A DNA stretch of 32,607 nucleotides from Actinomycetes bacterium (GCA_021799445.1 JAJZAM010000013.1:1-32607), one strand, 5' to 3'; positions 10,322 to 15,970 are shown, counted from the first letter of the stretch. The notes: generated from the letters alone by a model not told the origin. Numbers and translations are program-made.

Positions 10322-10768
10322 CTAGACGCTGCGCCGGCAGGCCTCAGTGGAACCCGGCAGCACGTGGCGCCACCTGACCACCGCCCTGTACACGGCGGAC
10401 GCCGGCCAGCTAGTCGGTGGATTGAGACATGCCCAGCCGAGGAACCACCTCCAACCTCCCCCGGCTTGCAACGCCCTTCCGACGGCTCTGTGGCCCCGCT
10501 CGGCAGTTCCTCCCGAACCCACCCACCACGCGGCGGACTTTACGTCGGCGACTGACAGTCCCATCGAAGCAAGCACATCCGCTCCCAGGCTCTGCCAAGG
10601 TAAGGCGACCTGCGCGCCTGTAAAGGCTTGCTCGGCCCACCGCGCGCTCGCAGTGCAGAAACCACAGTCCCCATCGAAGATGAGCGTCGCAACTCCCGGC
10701 CGATAGGGCAGGGCGGGCCTCGTAGATGTTTCGGCCTTCGTAGATCCGCTGGGATTAAGTGAAAACAC
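10322..10768 (-). CDS. DCC-family (DUF393) thiol-disulfide oxidoreductase-like protein
   Basis: ATLIFDGDCGFCTASARWAEQ... with the DGDCGFC signature; start uncertain. Confidence 0.75.
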   Translation of the reverse strand: MFSLNPSGSTKAETSTRPALPYRPGVATLIFDGDCGFCTASARWAEQAFTGAQVALPWQSLGADVLASMGLSVADVKSAAWWVGSGGTAERGHRAVGRALQAGGGWRWFLGWACLNPPTSWPASAVYRAVVRWRHVLPGSTEACRRSV

Positions 10769-10857: not shown

Positions 10858-10875
10858 CTAACGAACGATCGTTAG
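10858..10875. promoter_or_regulatory. Candidate TetR-family operator
   Basis: Perfect inverted repeat CTAACGA-ACGA-TCGTTAG, 18 nt upstream of the ATG at 10894. Confidence 0.6.
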
Positions 10876-10893
10876 GCACTGTCAGCAGGAGGG

Positions 10894-11538
10894 ATGATGG
10901 ACCTCGAAGAAGCCATGCGCACGCAGGGAACCTGCCGCTACTACCAGGATCGGGAAGTGCCCGACGAGGTGCTCTACCGAGCCTTCGACGCTGCGCGCTT
11001 CGGGCCCCAAGGCGGCAACCGCCAGCCTGTCCGTTTCGTAGTGGTACGCGACCCAACCAAGAAACGTCAGCTCAAGGAATGGTACCTAGGCCCGTGGAAG
11101 GCATACCTGTCCGGCATCGGCACCGGCGAGGTGCGCGCAGGGGCTCTGCCGAAAACGGTGGAGGCCGCAGACCATTTCGCAGAGCATTTCGACGAGGTCC
11201 CCGCTCTAGTAGTGGTATGTGCCGAGGTAGACGGGTTGCACCCGACCGACCACGAGCTCGGCCGGCTGAGCGTCGTAGGGGGTGGTTCGATCTACCCGAT
11301 CGTGCAGAACTTCCTGCTGGCGTGCAGGAACGAGGGATTGGGCAGCGCTCTCACCACCCTTCTGTGCGTGTTCGAACCTCAGGTCAAAGAGTTGCTGGAC
11401 ATCCCCGACGGGGTCATAACTGCCGCCACCATCGCCGTAGGCTGGCCGGCGAAGCCCTTCCCGAGCAAGCTGACCCGGATCGACGTGGACGATATGGTCC
11501 ACGTCGACTCCTACGGCGGCCGGACGCTCTCGCGCTGA
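10894..11538 (+). CDS. Nitroreductase-family flavoprotein
   Basis: MMDLEEAMRTQGTCRYYQDREVPDEVLYRAFDAARFGPQGGNRQPVRFVVVRD...IYPIVQNFLLACRNEGLGSALTT...; AGGAGGG RBS. Confidence 0.85.
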   Translation: MMDLEEAMRTQGTCRYYQDREVPDEVLYRAFDAARFGPQGGNRQPVRFVVVRDPTKKRQLKEWYLGPWKAYLSGIGTGEVRAGALPKTVEAADHFAEHFDEVPALVVVCAEVDGLHPTDHELGRLSVVGGGSIYPIVQNFLLACRNEGLGSALTTLLCVFEPQVKELLDIPDGVITAATIAVGWPAKPFPSKLTRIDVDDMVHVDSYGGRTLSR

Positions 11539-11567
11539 GCTGGGCCGGCGCTGAGCGGGACACGGCC

Positions 11568-13262
11568 GTGAGCGGGATAGAGGAAGGCACCTCGCTGGAC
11601 GGGGAGCCTGGCAACGCAGGGCGGCGGGAAGGCGCCAGCCGCACGACAGCGCCGGCTTACACGACCTCGTCGGGCATACCACTTTCAGCTCATTACGGCC
11701 CTGGGGACGTCCCCGACGACCACTGGCTCAAGGTGACAGCCCCACCCGGACAGGCTCCCTTCACCCGTGGCGCCTATCCGGAGATGTACCGGAGCAAACC
11801 ATGGCGGATCTTCCAACTCTCCGGGTTCGGGAATCCAGAGGACGAACGCGAGCGGATCCGTTTCCTCCTAGAGCACGGCGAGACCGGCTTCTTGATGGAG
11901 CACGACCGTATGACCGCAGATCACCTCTATGACGTGGATCACCCGGAGGTGGTCGCCCGGCGCGATGACGTGGGTCTCACCGGAGCTGTGATCCTCTCCG
12001 TCGACGACTACGAGACGGTCCTGGACGGCATCGACATCGCCAGCACGTACGCTCACGCCGGGGGTGCCGTCGTGCAGCACGCCCCGTTCGCGAACGCCTG
12101 CTACTGGACCGTAGCCAGGCGGCGGGGCATCGACCTTCGTCGGCTGGCCGGGACCGGACAGTCGGACTTCAACCTTACGTACCTCGGTTGCATCAATAAG
12201 GTGCAGGTGCCACCTCGTGACGGGCTTCGCTTCAACCTGGACCTGATCGAGCATTGCACCCGCTACCTGCCCAAGTGGGTTCCGGTTTCCATTGCCGCCT
12301 ACAACGCCGCCGACACAGGCCTCAACGCTTTCGAAGAGCTCGGCGCTCTCATGGCCAACGCAGCCGAGTACCTCGACGGCATCAGACAGCGCTCCAAGCT
12401 CGAGGTAGCCGACGTAGCGCACGGGGTCGGGGGAGTCAACCTACGAACTTCGATGGACTTCTTCGAAGACATCGCCAAGCTCCGCGCTGCGCGTTCCATG
12501 TGGGAAAGACTCCTCCGGGAGCGCTACGGGGTGACTGACGAGCGTGCCCGCCGGCTTCGGATCCACGTGGTCACAGCCGGGTCGGCAATGACCTACTCCC
12601 AGCCGCTCAACAACATCGCCCGCGGCACGCTGATGGGCTTGGCCGCAGTACTCGGAGGTGCTCAGTCGCTAGGCGTTTCTGGCTACGACGAGGCGATCAC
12701 TATCCCAAGCGAGCACGCCCACCAAATGTCGGTGCGCATCCAGCAGATACTCGCTCACGAAGCGAACCTCACGGCCGTTGCCGACCCTCTCGGCGGTTCG
12801 TGGCTCGTGGAATCCTTGACGGCGCAGCTCGAAGAGCGGGCGTGGGAGTTCTTCGAGCTGATACAACGCGAGGGGGGCTATGTCGCCACGCTCGATTCCG
12901 GCTGGTTGCATCAGCGTGCCTCGGCGGGAGCCTCGCTCGCCATGGACCAGGTGGAGAACGGCGACCGGATCCTCGTCGGGGTCAATGCGTACCAGGACGA
13001 CGTGTCCCCTTTCGAAGTAGAAGGCTTCGAAGGGACGACCGACGCTTGGGATCGGGCCATGACCCGCCTCGCTGCTCTGCGGCGCGAGCGAGACTCCCGG
13101 GCGGCCGCATCGGCGCTTCGGACGCTTGAAGGGGCCTGCCGCTCCGAGGTGAACATTATGGGCCCGATGCTCGACGCTGTGGAAGCTCGGGTGACCGTCG
13201 GTGAGATCGGCGACGTGTTTAGGACTGTGTTCGGGAACTGGGATGTCCCCATCGTCTTCTAG
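11568..13262 (+). CDS. Methylmalonyl-CoA-mutase-family acyl-CoA mutase, large (catalytic) subunit, divergent
   Basis: FTRGAYPEMYRSKPWRIFQLSGFG, FFEDIAKLRAARSMWERLLRERYG, VLGGAQSLGVSGYDEAITIPSEHAHQMSVRIQQILAHE, ADPLGGSWLVESLT, ILVGVNAY, C-terminal VFGNWDVPIVF. GTG at 11568 in frame; upstream ORF extension rejected. Confidence 0.88.
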   Translation: MSGIEEGTSLDGEPGNAGRREGASRTTAPAYTTSSGIPLSAHYGPGDVPDDHWLKVTAPPGQAPFTRGAYPEMYRSKPWRIFQLSGFGNPEDERERIRFLLEHGETGFLMEHDRMTADHLYDVDHPEVVARRDDVGLTGAVILSVDDYETVLDGIDIASTYAHAGGAVVQHAPFANACYWTVARRRGIDLRRLAGTGQSDFNLTYLGCINKVQVPPRDGLRFNLDLIEHCTRYLPKWVPVSIAAYNAADTGLNAFEELGALMANAAEYLDGIRQRSKLEVADVAHGVGGVNLRTSMDFFEDIAKLRAARSMWERLLRERYGVTDERARRLRIHVVTAGSAMTYSQPLNNIARGTLMGLAAVLGGAQSLGVSGYDEAITIPSEHAHQMSVRIQQILAHEANLTAVADPLGGSWLVESLTAQLEERAWEFFELIQREGGYVATLDSGWLHQRASAGASLAMDQVENGDRILVGVNAYQDDVSPFEVEGFEGTTDAWDRAMTRLAALRRERDSRAAASALRTLEGACRSEVNIMGPMLDAVEARVTVGEIGDVFRTVFGNWDVPIVF

Positions 13263-13270
13263 GAGGTGCT

Positions 13271-13681
13271 TTGAGCGACGAACCTGCGCGGATCCTGATG
13301 GCCAAGACATCTTTGGACGGCCACTGGAGGGGCGTAACGATCGTGGAACGCGCCCTTCGCGAAGCGCATTTCGAGGTGATAGCACTCGGGATGGCCACCG
13401 CGGAAGAAATAGTCAGAGCGGCGGTCGACGAGGAGGTGGACTTGGTGGGCCTCAATCTCGGAGGGCGTTCCGCCGTGGTAGAGCGGATCGTCGCCGAGCT
13501 TCGAGCCCAGGGGTCTGACGTTCCGGTGATGGTCGGAGGGGTTATCACACCGCAGACCAAGAAGAGACTCGAATCATCGGGGATAGCGGTGTTCCCTCCG
13601 GGGTCGTCACTCGAAGACATTGTCGCCACAGCCCGACGCCTGTGCGAACACAGCGCTGAGATGAAACAGGAGGCGCAGTAG
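13271..13681 (+). CDS. B12-binding small subunit of acyl-CoA mutase
   Basis: RILMAKTSLDGHWRGVTIVERALREAHFEVIALG (DxHxxG cobalamin motif)...VPVMVGGVITPQTKKRLESSGIAVFPPGSSLEDI; AGGAGGT RBS before TTG at 13271. Confidence 0.88.
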   Translation: MSDEPARILMAKTSLDGHWRGVTIVERALREAHFEVIALGMATAEEIVRAAVDEEVDLVGLNLGGRSAVVERIVAELRAQGSDVPVMVGGVITPQTKKRLESSGIAVFPPGSSLEDIVATARRLCEHSAEMKQEAQ

Positions 13682-15318
13682 TGGGAGACTTTCTCTCATC
13701 GCAGATGCAGCCGGTCGGCCGGGCGACTCTCGGGGATCAACTGCGACGTCATGCGATCGCAAACCCAGACGCCGAAGCTGTCGTCTCCTATGATGAGGTA
13801 GGTCGTCGCCGAAGCTTCACCTACTCCCAGCTCCACGCTAGGGCCAACAGGATCGCGAATGCGCTGAGCGCCGCGGGCGTTCGCCGCGGCGACAGGATCG
13901 CCGTCATGGCAGCAAACTCGGCTGACTGGGTTGCGATCTGGTACGGGGCTTTGAGCATCGGGGCTCCGCTTACCGGCATCAATCCCAACCTCACCGTCGA
14001 CGACATCGCCTACCAGTTGGCGCACGCCGAGCCGGCCGCCATCTTCGCCGGGGCCGACCTAGCTGGTAAAGCACAAGCGGCCCTCGAACAGACCGCGAAC
14101 CACCCGAGCGGGCCACGTTGGCCTCTGGTCGCCCGGGTCGTCATCACCACACCCCCAGGCCCACTACGCGACGCGACGGAACCGCAGCTACCGCAGAACT
14201 GGGTTCGCTTGGACGACTTGTCGGGTGGCGCGCCAGACAGCGACCCCGACGGGGCCGTAGACGAGCATGACATCGCGATGATCGTGTACACGTCCGGCAC
14301 GGAGGCACGACCCAAGGGGGTGATGATCCCCCACCGTAACTACCTGTGCGCGACGGTGCCCGGGTGGGCTTCGGAGATAGGTATCCGCCGTGGTGACCGC
14401 TGGCTGTTCGTCATGCCTTTCTTCACGATGGCGGGGATCGGTTCCATGACCAACCTCACCCAGATCGGCGCGACGCTGGTGATCCCGTCGGCGATAGATC
14501 CCAGACAGGCCATCGAACTGATACAGGCCGAGTCGATCACCACAATGGCGCAGACGCCTACCTTCTTCTTGTCCATGGCCCGTCAGGAAACCTTCCAGGC
14601 ATCCCGGGTCGCACATCTCCGCCGTTGCATCACCTACGGGGGCCTCGTCCCAAACTCGATGATCGAAGCGTGGTCAGCCGTGAAACCCGAATTGGAGTGG
14701 GGCACCTACTGGAGTCAGTCTGAGCTGTCACAGGTTGGGACGTGCGGATGGTTCAGGACTTTCGACGACGTACCCGGCCGGGATCCCGCCTGGGTTGGTC
14801 GCGCCATGCCACAACTCGAACTGAGAGTGGTCGACCCCGAGGGAAACGACACCGAGGTGGGAGAAGTGATCTGCCGTTCTCCTGCGGTGATGGCCGGCTA
14901 CTTCGCCGACCCTGACCGCACCGAGGACGCTCTCGGATCGGGGTGGCTCCACACCGGGGACGTGATGCGGATAGACCCCGACGGGAACCTCTTCTTCGTG
15001 GATCGCCTGAAGGACGTGATCAAAACCGGCGGGATGAACGTGTCCTCGGTCGAAGTGGAGCGGGCGATTGCCACCCACCCGGCCGTCGAGCGAGTAGCAG
15101 TCGTCGGCGTGGCCGATCCCTACTGGTCTGAGGCAGTCACAGCATTCGTGGTTGTAAAACCAGGCGCGAACTGCACCCCAACCGAGATCGTCGAGCATTC
15201 CCGCTCGACGCTTGCGCCTTTCAAAGTGCCGAAAGCTGTCTACGTCGTCGACGCACTCCCGACGGATAGCCAGGGCAAGGTTCTCAAGCGTGTGCTTCGC
15301 GCCGGACCGTCCTGGTGA
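13681..15318 (+). CDS. AMP-dependent acyl-CoA synthetase/ligase
   Basis: IVYTSGTEARPKGVMIPHRNY, GEVICRSPAVMAGYF, GWLHTGDVMRIDPDGNLFFVDRLKDVIKTGGMNVSSVEVE; GTG shares one base with the preceding TAG. Confidence 0.92.
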   Translation: MGDFLSSQMQPVGRATLGDQLRRHAIANPDAEAVVSYDEVGRRRSFTYSQLHARANRIANALSAAGVRRGDRIAVMAANSADWVAIWYGALSIGAPLTGINPNLTVDDIAYQLAHAEPAAIFAGADLAGKAQAALEQTANHPSGPRWPLVARVVITTPPGPLRDATEPQLPQNWVRLDDLSGGAPDSDPDGAVDEHDIAMIVYTSGTEARPKGVMIPHRNYLCATVPGWASEIGIRRGDRWLFVMPFFTMAGIGSMTNLTQIGATLVIPSAIDPRQAIELIQAESITTMAQTPTFFLSMARQETFQASRVAHLRRCITYGGLVPNSMIEAWSAVKPELEWGTYWSQSELSQVGTCGWFRTFDDVPGRDPAWVGRAMPQLELRVVDPEGNDTEVGEVICRSPAVMAGYFADPDRTEDALGSGWLHTGDVMRIDPDGNLFFVDRLKDVIKTGGMNVSSVEVERAIATHPAVERVAVVGVADPYWSEAVTAFVVVKPGANCTPTEIVEHSRSTLAPFKVPKAVYVVDALPTDSQGKVLKRVLRAGPSW

Positions 15319-15331
15319 CCACCCAGTGCTG

Positions 15332-15970
15332 ATGATAGACCCAGAGCCTGCCGGGGCATCGGAGGCAGGCGGCAGGCGGGAGGAGATCGTGGAGATCGCC
15401 AGCCGTCTTTTCGCAGAGCGAAGCTACCGGGGTGTGGGCATGCGCGCCATCGCTTCAGCCGTTGGAGTGCAACCGGCCAGCATTTACCACCACTTCTCAT
15501 CAAAGGCTGACATTCTTGACGCCATAATTGCCGATGTCACAGAGCGCTTCATCGCTGCTCACCTGTACTTGTTGGACCCCAAGTTCGTCACTGCTTCCTC
15601 GATGCGACAGCTAGTCACCGAGCACGTCGTGTACTTCTGGCAGCACCGCATCGCCGAGGCGGTCGGGCTACGAGAACTGAAAGAGCTGAGCGTCGCAAGG
15701 GCCGAACACGTCCGCCGATCCAGGCGCAGCTACCAGGATGCCTGGATCTGCGCCATCCAGGTCGGCGTATCCGGCGGATGGCTGCCGGCGCAAAACCCCA
15801 GGGTCGCCGCCTTGGCGCTACTGTCGATGATCAACGGCGTAAACGCCTGGTACCGAGAGGACGGGCCGCTAAGCATCGCAGAGGTCGCCGAGATGCACGC
15901 GGAGATGGCAGTCACGGGTCTTTTAGGAAGGCCCTCGAAGCGCCACGTCGACTCGCCTCGGCGTGGGTGA
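15332..15970 (+). CDS. TetR/AcrR-family transcriptional regulator
   Basis: RREEIVEIASRLFAERSYRGVGMRAIASAVGVQPASIYHHFSSKADILDAII: classic TetR HTH. Confidence 0.9.
   Translation: MIDPEPAGASEAGGRREEIVEIASRLFAERSYRGVGMRAIASAVGVQPASIYHHFSSKADILDAIIADVTERFIAAHLYLLDPKFVTASSMRQLVTEHVVYFWQHRIAEAVGLRELKELSVARAEHVRRSRRSYQDAWICAIQVGVSGGWLPAQNPRVAALALLSMINGVNAWYREDGPLSIAEVAEMHAEMAVTGLLGRPSKRHVDSPRRG

Follow-up and report, generated by a model that had tools for sequence, protein, structure and literature searches.

Which acid is handled by a compact actinobacterial operon that carries a B12-dependent mutase together with a CoA ligase, and by what reaction? In the window, by which we mean the whole 32,607-nucleotide stretch of DNA analysed here, ORF calls gave five co-directional genes on the plus strand at 10,894–15,970. 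They encode, in order, a nitroreductase-family (FMN) protein of 214 aa (10894–11538, with the start at 10894 or 10897; PF00881, 71 bits), the large, substrate-binding subunit of a B12-dependent acyl-CoA mutase (564 aa; GTG at 11568 to 13262; PF01642, 462 bits), a B12-binding small subunit (136 aa; TTG at 13271 to 13681; PF02310, 69 bits), an AMP-forming acyl-CoA ligase of the FadD type (545 aa; GTG at 13681 to 15318; PF00501, 251 bits, and PF13193, 72 bits), and a TetR-family regulator (GTG at 15326 or ATG at 15332 to 15970; PF00440, 60 bits, and PF17932 TetR_C_24, 87 bits). The original prediction of five same-strand genes with tight spacing was thus confirmed by the ORF calls and Pfam, the gaps in gene order being 29, 8, −1 and 7 bases, and the single shared base that it had noted (TAGTG) is real: base 13681 belongs both to the small-subunit stop TAG (13679–13681) and to the ligase start GTG (13681–13683). 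As the neighbours on the nitroreductase side (a DCC1-like gene, 10322–10768) and on the TetR side (an XdhC-like gene, from 15977) both lie on the minus strand, the operon stands alone as a self-contained unit. All five genes are also present in a sister species of the same genus at 97–99.5% identity, so the set is no assembly accident. A MeaB gene is found elsewhere in the genome, outside the operon.

Control of the operon by the TetR protein is well supported by a putative operator that recurs 5′ of operon and regulator genes. An inverted repeat, CTAACGAACGATCGTTAG, with 7-base arms (CTAACGA and TCGTTAG) around a 4-base spacer (ACGA), lies at 10858–10875, 36 bases 5′ of the nitroreductase start, and position 10858, with which the originally noted stretch began, is exactly its first base. 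Even with 3 mismatches allowed, the window contains no other match. Copies at up to 3 mismatches were found 5′ of the operon's first gene and/or of a divergent TetR gene in L041, L043, L098, L099, L107 and L116; similar sites precede the nitroreductase in all of these except L043. That locus is from a different phylum (a Chloroflexota bin of the Ktedonobacterales), and its site is directly 5′ of the mutase, the first gene there. Sites 5′ of the divergent TetR gene occur in L098, L099 and L107. No copy at up to 3 mismatches was present in L042 or L092, which have the nitroreductase and the mutase without a nearby TetR gene. The putative operator is therefore present with a nearby TetR gene and absent without one, which supports TetR control as originally predicted, as does its occurrence in several lineages far above chance: at up to 2 mismatches, nine loci together gave 13 strand-matches where shuffling gave a mean of 0.017, with zero matches at that threshold in 1.25 Mb of other loci.

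The large subunit, by its PF01642 score, and the small subunit, by its B12-binding motif DGHWRG (DxHxxG), belong to the PF01642 B12-dependent acyl-CoA mutase superfamily, the small subunit also exceeding the cut-off of TIGR00640 (86.5 versus 57.45 bits). The Mcm equivalog model NF006944 gave 329 bits against a cut-off of 876, a full-length model that penalises a split subunit. The closest solved structure was Hcm (4r3u) both by sequence (294 bits) and by fold (TM 0.76), the latter from a model of modest confidence (mean pLDDT 68) from which nothing but the fold was taken. Within the same genome, the next mutase is only 39% identical, and no plasmid match reached 60% identity, those among the matches listed having 32–36%. 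One Marinobacter plasmid (strain M3C; L155:3842–5946) carries an enoyl-CoA hydratase, a split mutase, a CoA transferase and an adenosyltransferase near transposases; its mutase is 50% identical to the Icm-like type, but has Ala-His at positions 243–244, and the cluster is a further one without an assignment.

Scanning about 85,000 species yielded 80 kept loci, and clade members at 58–70% identity occur in 16 of the 296 sampled genomes of the class. The hosts, with bin names as deposited, comprise Acidimicrobiia, other actinobacteria, Halieaceae, other gammaproteobacteria, alpha-, beta- and deltaproteobacteria and one Ktedonobacterales bin, and include the cultured Acidithrix ferrooxidans, Pseudohaliea rubra, Kineobactrum sediminis and strain NOR5-3. 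In a 59-row tree, the clade had 100/100 support on a stem of 1.45 changes per site and stood apart from Mcm, Hcm (PM1, 4r3u and Xaut_5021), Pcm (Xaut_5043), the Icm-like rows, IcmF and an Ecm-like row. The last, from the window's own genome, is the sole Ecm representative on the tree; it has retained Arg207 and His244 and is placed in another part of the tree. In the search alignment this Ecm-like gene (L003:284–1870) has two in-frame TGA codons, reflecting either an assembly error or a broken gene. A row from the Sphingobium plasmid pTomMM7Aa (L162:3920–5641) joins the base of the clade weakly (86/91) on a long branch; this large subunit, likewise from an orphan mutase, has Gln in place of His244, and its gene is flanked by a P450 gene on one side and by MeaB/TonB genes on the other. 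The mutase is, as had been predicted, divergent, falling outside every characterised group placed on a tree that was built without RcmA, the benzylmalonyl-CoA mutase IaaG or an authenticated Ecm. The literature searched, a set that excluded several key mutase papers, yielded no description of this clade. By sequence and tree position it is a distinct orphan clade of a known kind of enzyme, conserved and uncharacterised.

Active-site positions were scored in 74 clade members and 29 references, using what we take to be the P. shermanii and Hcm residue numbers; the window's large subunit has Leu84, Glu111, Arg114, Asn246 and Val335. Asn replaces His244 in 74 of 74 clade members (28 of the 29 references have His), and Leu replaces Tyr89 just as invariantly. 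At the Arg207/Gln position all 74 have Val, Pro, Ile or Leu (Ile209 in the window) and no Arg or Gln is aligned, the exact register there being uncertain because of a one-residue insertion beside position 207. The Gln330 position is Val in 69 members, the Hcm Asp117 position holds Glu (63 members) or Lys (11) but never Val, and Arg114 is found in 72, where most references have Leu or Met. By contrast with these replacements, Tyr243 and Gln197 (72/74 each) and His328 and Glu370 (74/74 each) are kept, as is DxHxxG in 58 of 58 clade small subunits. This pattern suggests to us a functional B12 enzyme whose substrate pocket has been re-shaped. The loss of His244 and Gln330 could alter or weaken catalysis; in Mcm, the H244A mutant (PDB 1e1c) is reportedly impaired. 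The (near-)invariant replacement of several catalytic-pocket residues would also fit a large subunit that has no mutase activity and plays another role, for example as a lyase or a CoA-ester binding protein, but we regard this as very improbable given the four kept residues, the intact DxHxxG and the presence near the mutase, in 44 of the 80 loci, of MeaB, which suits an active B12 enzyme. For an active mutase, carbon-skeleton rearrangement is the likely reaction type. In Mcm, Arg207 holds the carboxylate, and its absence throughout the clade argues against methylmalonyl-, succinyl- or ethylmalonyl-CoA; the substrate is probably a branched or hydroxylated monocarboxylic acyl-CoA. According to a review (PMC2847961), substrate choice in the mutase family depends on only a few residues, and exchanging them in a simple way had not given active enzymes.

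Gene context was counted over the 80 loci with tblastn; several contigs are truncated, and many loci come from close relatives, so that the counts are not independent events. The small subunit lies beside the large one in 77 loci, with a ligase near by in 66 and a TetR homologue in 46; further neighbours, in addition to the MeaB count given above, are iron-type alcohol dehydrogenases (43 loci), TonB receptors (35), enoyl-CoA hydratases (29) and nitroreductases (8). The original prediction is supported on both points that could have refuted it, since the mutase fell in no characterised clade placed on the tree and gene order is conserved as to its core: the core of large subunit, small subunit and ligase is conserved in most loci and in several phyla, whereas the full five-gene set occurs in only 6 of 80 (L041, L043, L098, L099, L107 and L116), with some reshuffling, and is a lineage version. 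The five-gene order as a universal unit was accordingly rejected. Gammaproteobacteria usually have TonB-ligase-TetR-iron-type alcohol dehydrogenase facing mutase-MeaB-hydratase, often with a P450 near, and amidohydrolase or amidase genes are found in other clade loci. Since neighbours vary between lineages (P450, iron-type alcohol dehydrogenase, TonB, xsc/aminotransferase, amidohydrolases), clade members may differ in substrate, and deducing the substrate from neighbour genes was rejected because the contexts are too diverse.

The flavin nitroreductase had been taken as a pointer to a different substrate, a suggestion that lost its weight: with a nitroreductase in 8 of 80 loci, it is an accessory of the actinobacterial/Ktedonobacterales version and says little about the core substrate of the clade. 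The protein gave weak scores to BluB and several other flavoenzymes and no family-level assignment, and its fold resembles generic nitroreductase, FbiB and IYD structures; BluB, the FbiB C-terminal domain and IYD are like it in fold and weak profile similarity. Its identity as BluB was rejected, the score against TIGR02476 (50.9 bits) being far below the cut-off of 150. Among the 296 class genomes, 8 have homologues of at least 53% identity: in five these lie close to or next to the mutase, and in the other three, where the identity is 54–57%, no clade mutase was found. The neighbours of these three (a cupin, a luciferase-like gene and unassigned genes) are of an uninformative kind, and these loci were set aside as a clue to its role. 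The nitroreductase lies directly 5′ of the mutase in the window locus, L041, L042, L098, L099, L107 and L116; these seven loci, and a family that includes flavin reductases and BluB, would suit a role in cofactor repair, in which the protein reduces cob(II)alamin for re-adenosylation of the mutase cofactor. We consider this improbable in view of its rarity among the mutase loci, the three homologues apart from any clade mutase and the low BluB score. A redox role on the substrate is more likely than cofactor repair, although it is the weakest step of our explanation.

The Glu/Lys residue follows gene context partly. Of residues 111 and 117 (window 11898–11918), Glu111 goes with mostly Ala/Gly117 in one group and Lys111 with mostly Asp117 in the other, and this pairing is a possible specificity switch. 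The Lys group contains xsc loci, M20 amidohydrolase loci (L108–L111), an amidase locus (L104), and L102, L103 and L089. As L100, L102, L108 and L110 group together at 93/89 in the tree, much of the Lys group is one branch, making the link between Lys and context a lead rather than proof. A sponge-associated acidimicrobial genus has a run of mutase, small subunit, xsc, class-III aminotransferase and ligase (L031, L033, L035–L037, L100, L105 and L106), in which the TPP enzyme scores as a sulfoacetaldehyde acetyltransferase (788 bits, curated cut-off 676); its alternative identity as a 2-hydroxyacyl-CoA lyase was rejected on this score. This run possibly links taurine/sulfonate metabolism to a B12 mutase. 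Because the Lys group includes the xsc/aminotransferase loci, its enzymes may accept anionic acyl-CoA esters, such as sulfonated ones, and neutral or hydroxylated esters may be the substrates of the Glu branch, to which the mutase in this window belongs. Within one genus, three genomes (G237, G253 and G264) each have two clade paralogues (L024–L026 and L031, L035, L037), with P450/luciferase-like neighbours for one and xsc/aminotransferase neighbours for the other, hinting at different substrates within the clade.

Taken together, we are fairly confident that this is a substrate-inducible catabolic operon whose orphan-clade B12 mutase rearranges an acyl-CoA, most likely a branched or hydroxylated monocarboxylic one. 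TetR would bind the putative operator at 10858–10875 and repress the operon until the acid or its CoA ester releases it. The ligase, the family of which is clear, would convert the acid to its CoA ester. In the split mutase, the large subunit would hold the substrate and the adenosyl radical, and the small subunit adenosylcobalamin via the His of DxHxxG; going by its family, the enzyme would move CO-SCoA to the neighbouring carbon to give a skeleton fit for normal acyl-CoA oxidation. MeaB, encoded elsewhere in the genome, would load and repair the cofactor, and the nitroreductase would most likely act on this compound too, in a flavin redox step specific to the lineage. That the clade acts, with Asn replacing the catalytic His, on a substrate class new for B12 acyl-CoA mutases is a narrower proposal that we make tentatively, rating it somewhat short of an even chance. 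To our knowledge, few substrates are known for these mutases, and every addition to the list has led to a route of degradation or biosynthesis, as for 2-hydroxyisobutyrate, ethylmalonyl-CoA and pivalate; the present clade may reveal a new degradation route. It occurs in several phyla and in cultured strains, usually with its own ligase, which can be used for finding the substrate, and it offers a natural replacement of a residue (His244) thought important for radical control, so that the rearrangement range of the family and its need for His244 become directly assayable.

Comparison with known systems places the operon mutase beside, rather than within, the characterised groups. It has in common with Mcm (MMUT) the PF01642 fold, the B12-binding motif and the Tyr243, Gln197, His328 and Glu370 positions, but it lacks Tyr89, Arg207, His244 and Gln330 and its subunits are split; Mcm membership was rejected on the first three of these pocket residues (here Leu84, Ile209 and Asn246) and on the tree. 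The Icm/IcmF pocket is of the Phe80 and Gln198 type, and membership there was rejected since the operon enzyme has Leu and no Gln and is unfused, and the IcmF rows branch elsewhere. RcmA (Rcm of Kyrpidia, the (R)-3-hydroxybutyryl-CoA-forming mutase) has Val at the Asp117 position. A known reaction, on 2-hydroxyisobutyryl-/3-hydroxybutyryl-CoA or pivalyl-/isovaleryl-CoA, might be carried out here by a diverged, convergent sequence, making the operon another 2-hydroxyisobutyrate- or pivalate-type pathway; we think this rather unlikely. Among solved structures, HcmAB (Aquincola tertiaricarbonis 4r3u, Methylibium PM1 and Xanthobacter Xaut_5021) comes closest in both sequence and fold; it has an acidic residue at the Asp117 site, as here, and is alike in its split subunits and clustered ligase and regulator. 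Its cluster differs in having a GntR rather than a TetR regulator, a PaaK-like ligase and MeaB inside the cluster, and Hcm has His244, Ile90 and Gln208, where the operon enzyme has Asn, Leu and no Gln; membership was rejected on the replacement of Ile90/Asp117/Gln208 by Leu/Glu/no Gln, on the separate clade and on the ligase. The latter, below the cut-offs of the NCBIfam models listed and not detectably related to HCL (Xaut_5019; 24 bits, E 0.016), is on profile evidence FadD-type, not HCL-type. Xaut_5043/5044 of Xanthobacter autotrophicus Py2, which we take to be Pcm, resembles the operon in its split mutase, nearby TetR (25% identical), MeaB and ligase, and in Leu at the Tyr89 position, but keeps His244, has another gene order and sits on a separate long branch; membership was rejected on the 35% identity to Xaut_5043 and the lack of grouping with it. 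Identities of only about 31–36%, a separate 100/100 clade, the change of His244 to Asn, the loss of Gln207 and a ligase unlike HCL weigh against a known reaction. The predicted likeness to 2-hydroxyisobutyrate- and pivalate-type logic nevertheless holds at the level of layout: the Hcm and Pcm clusters likewise join a regulator, a split mutase, MeaB and a ligase, while residues and tree set the operon mutase apart from both.
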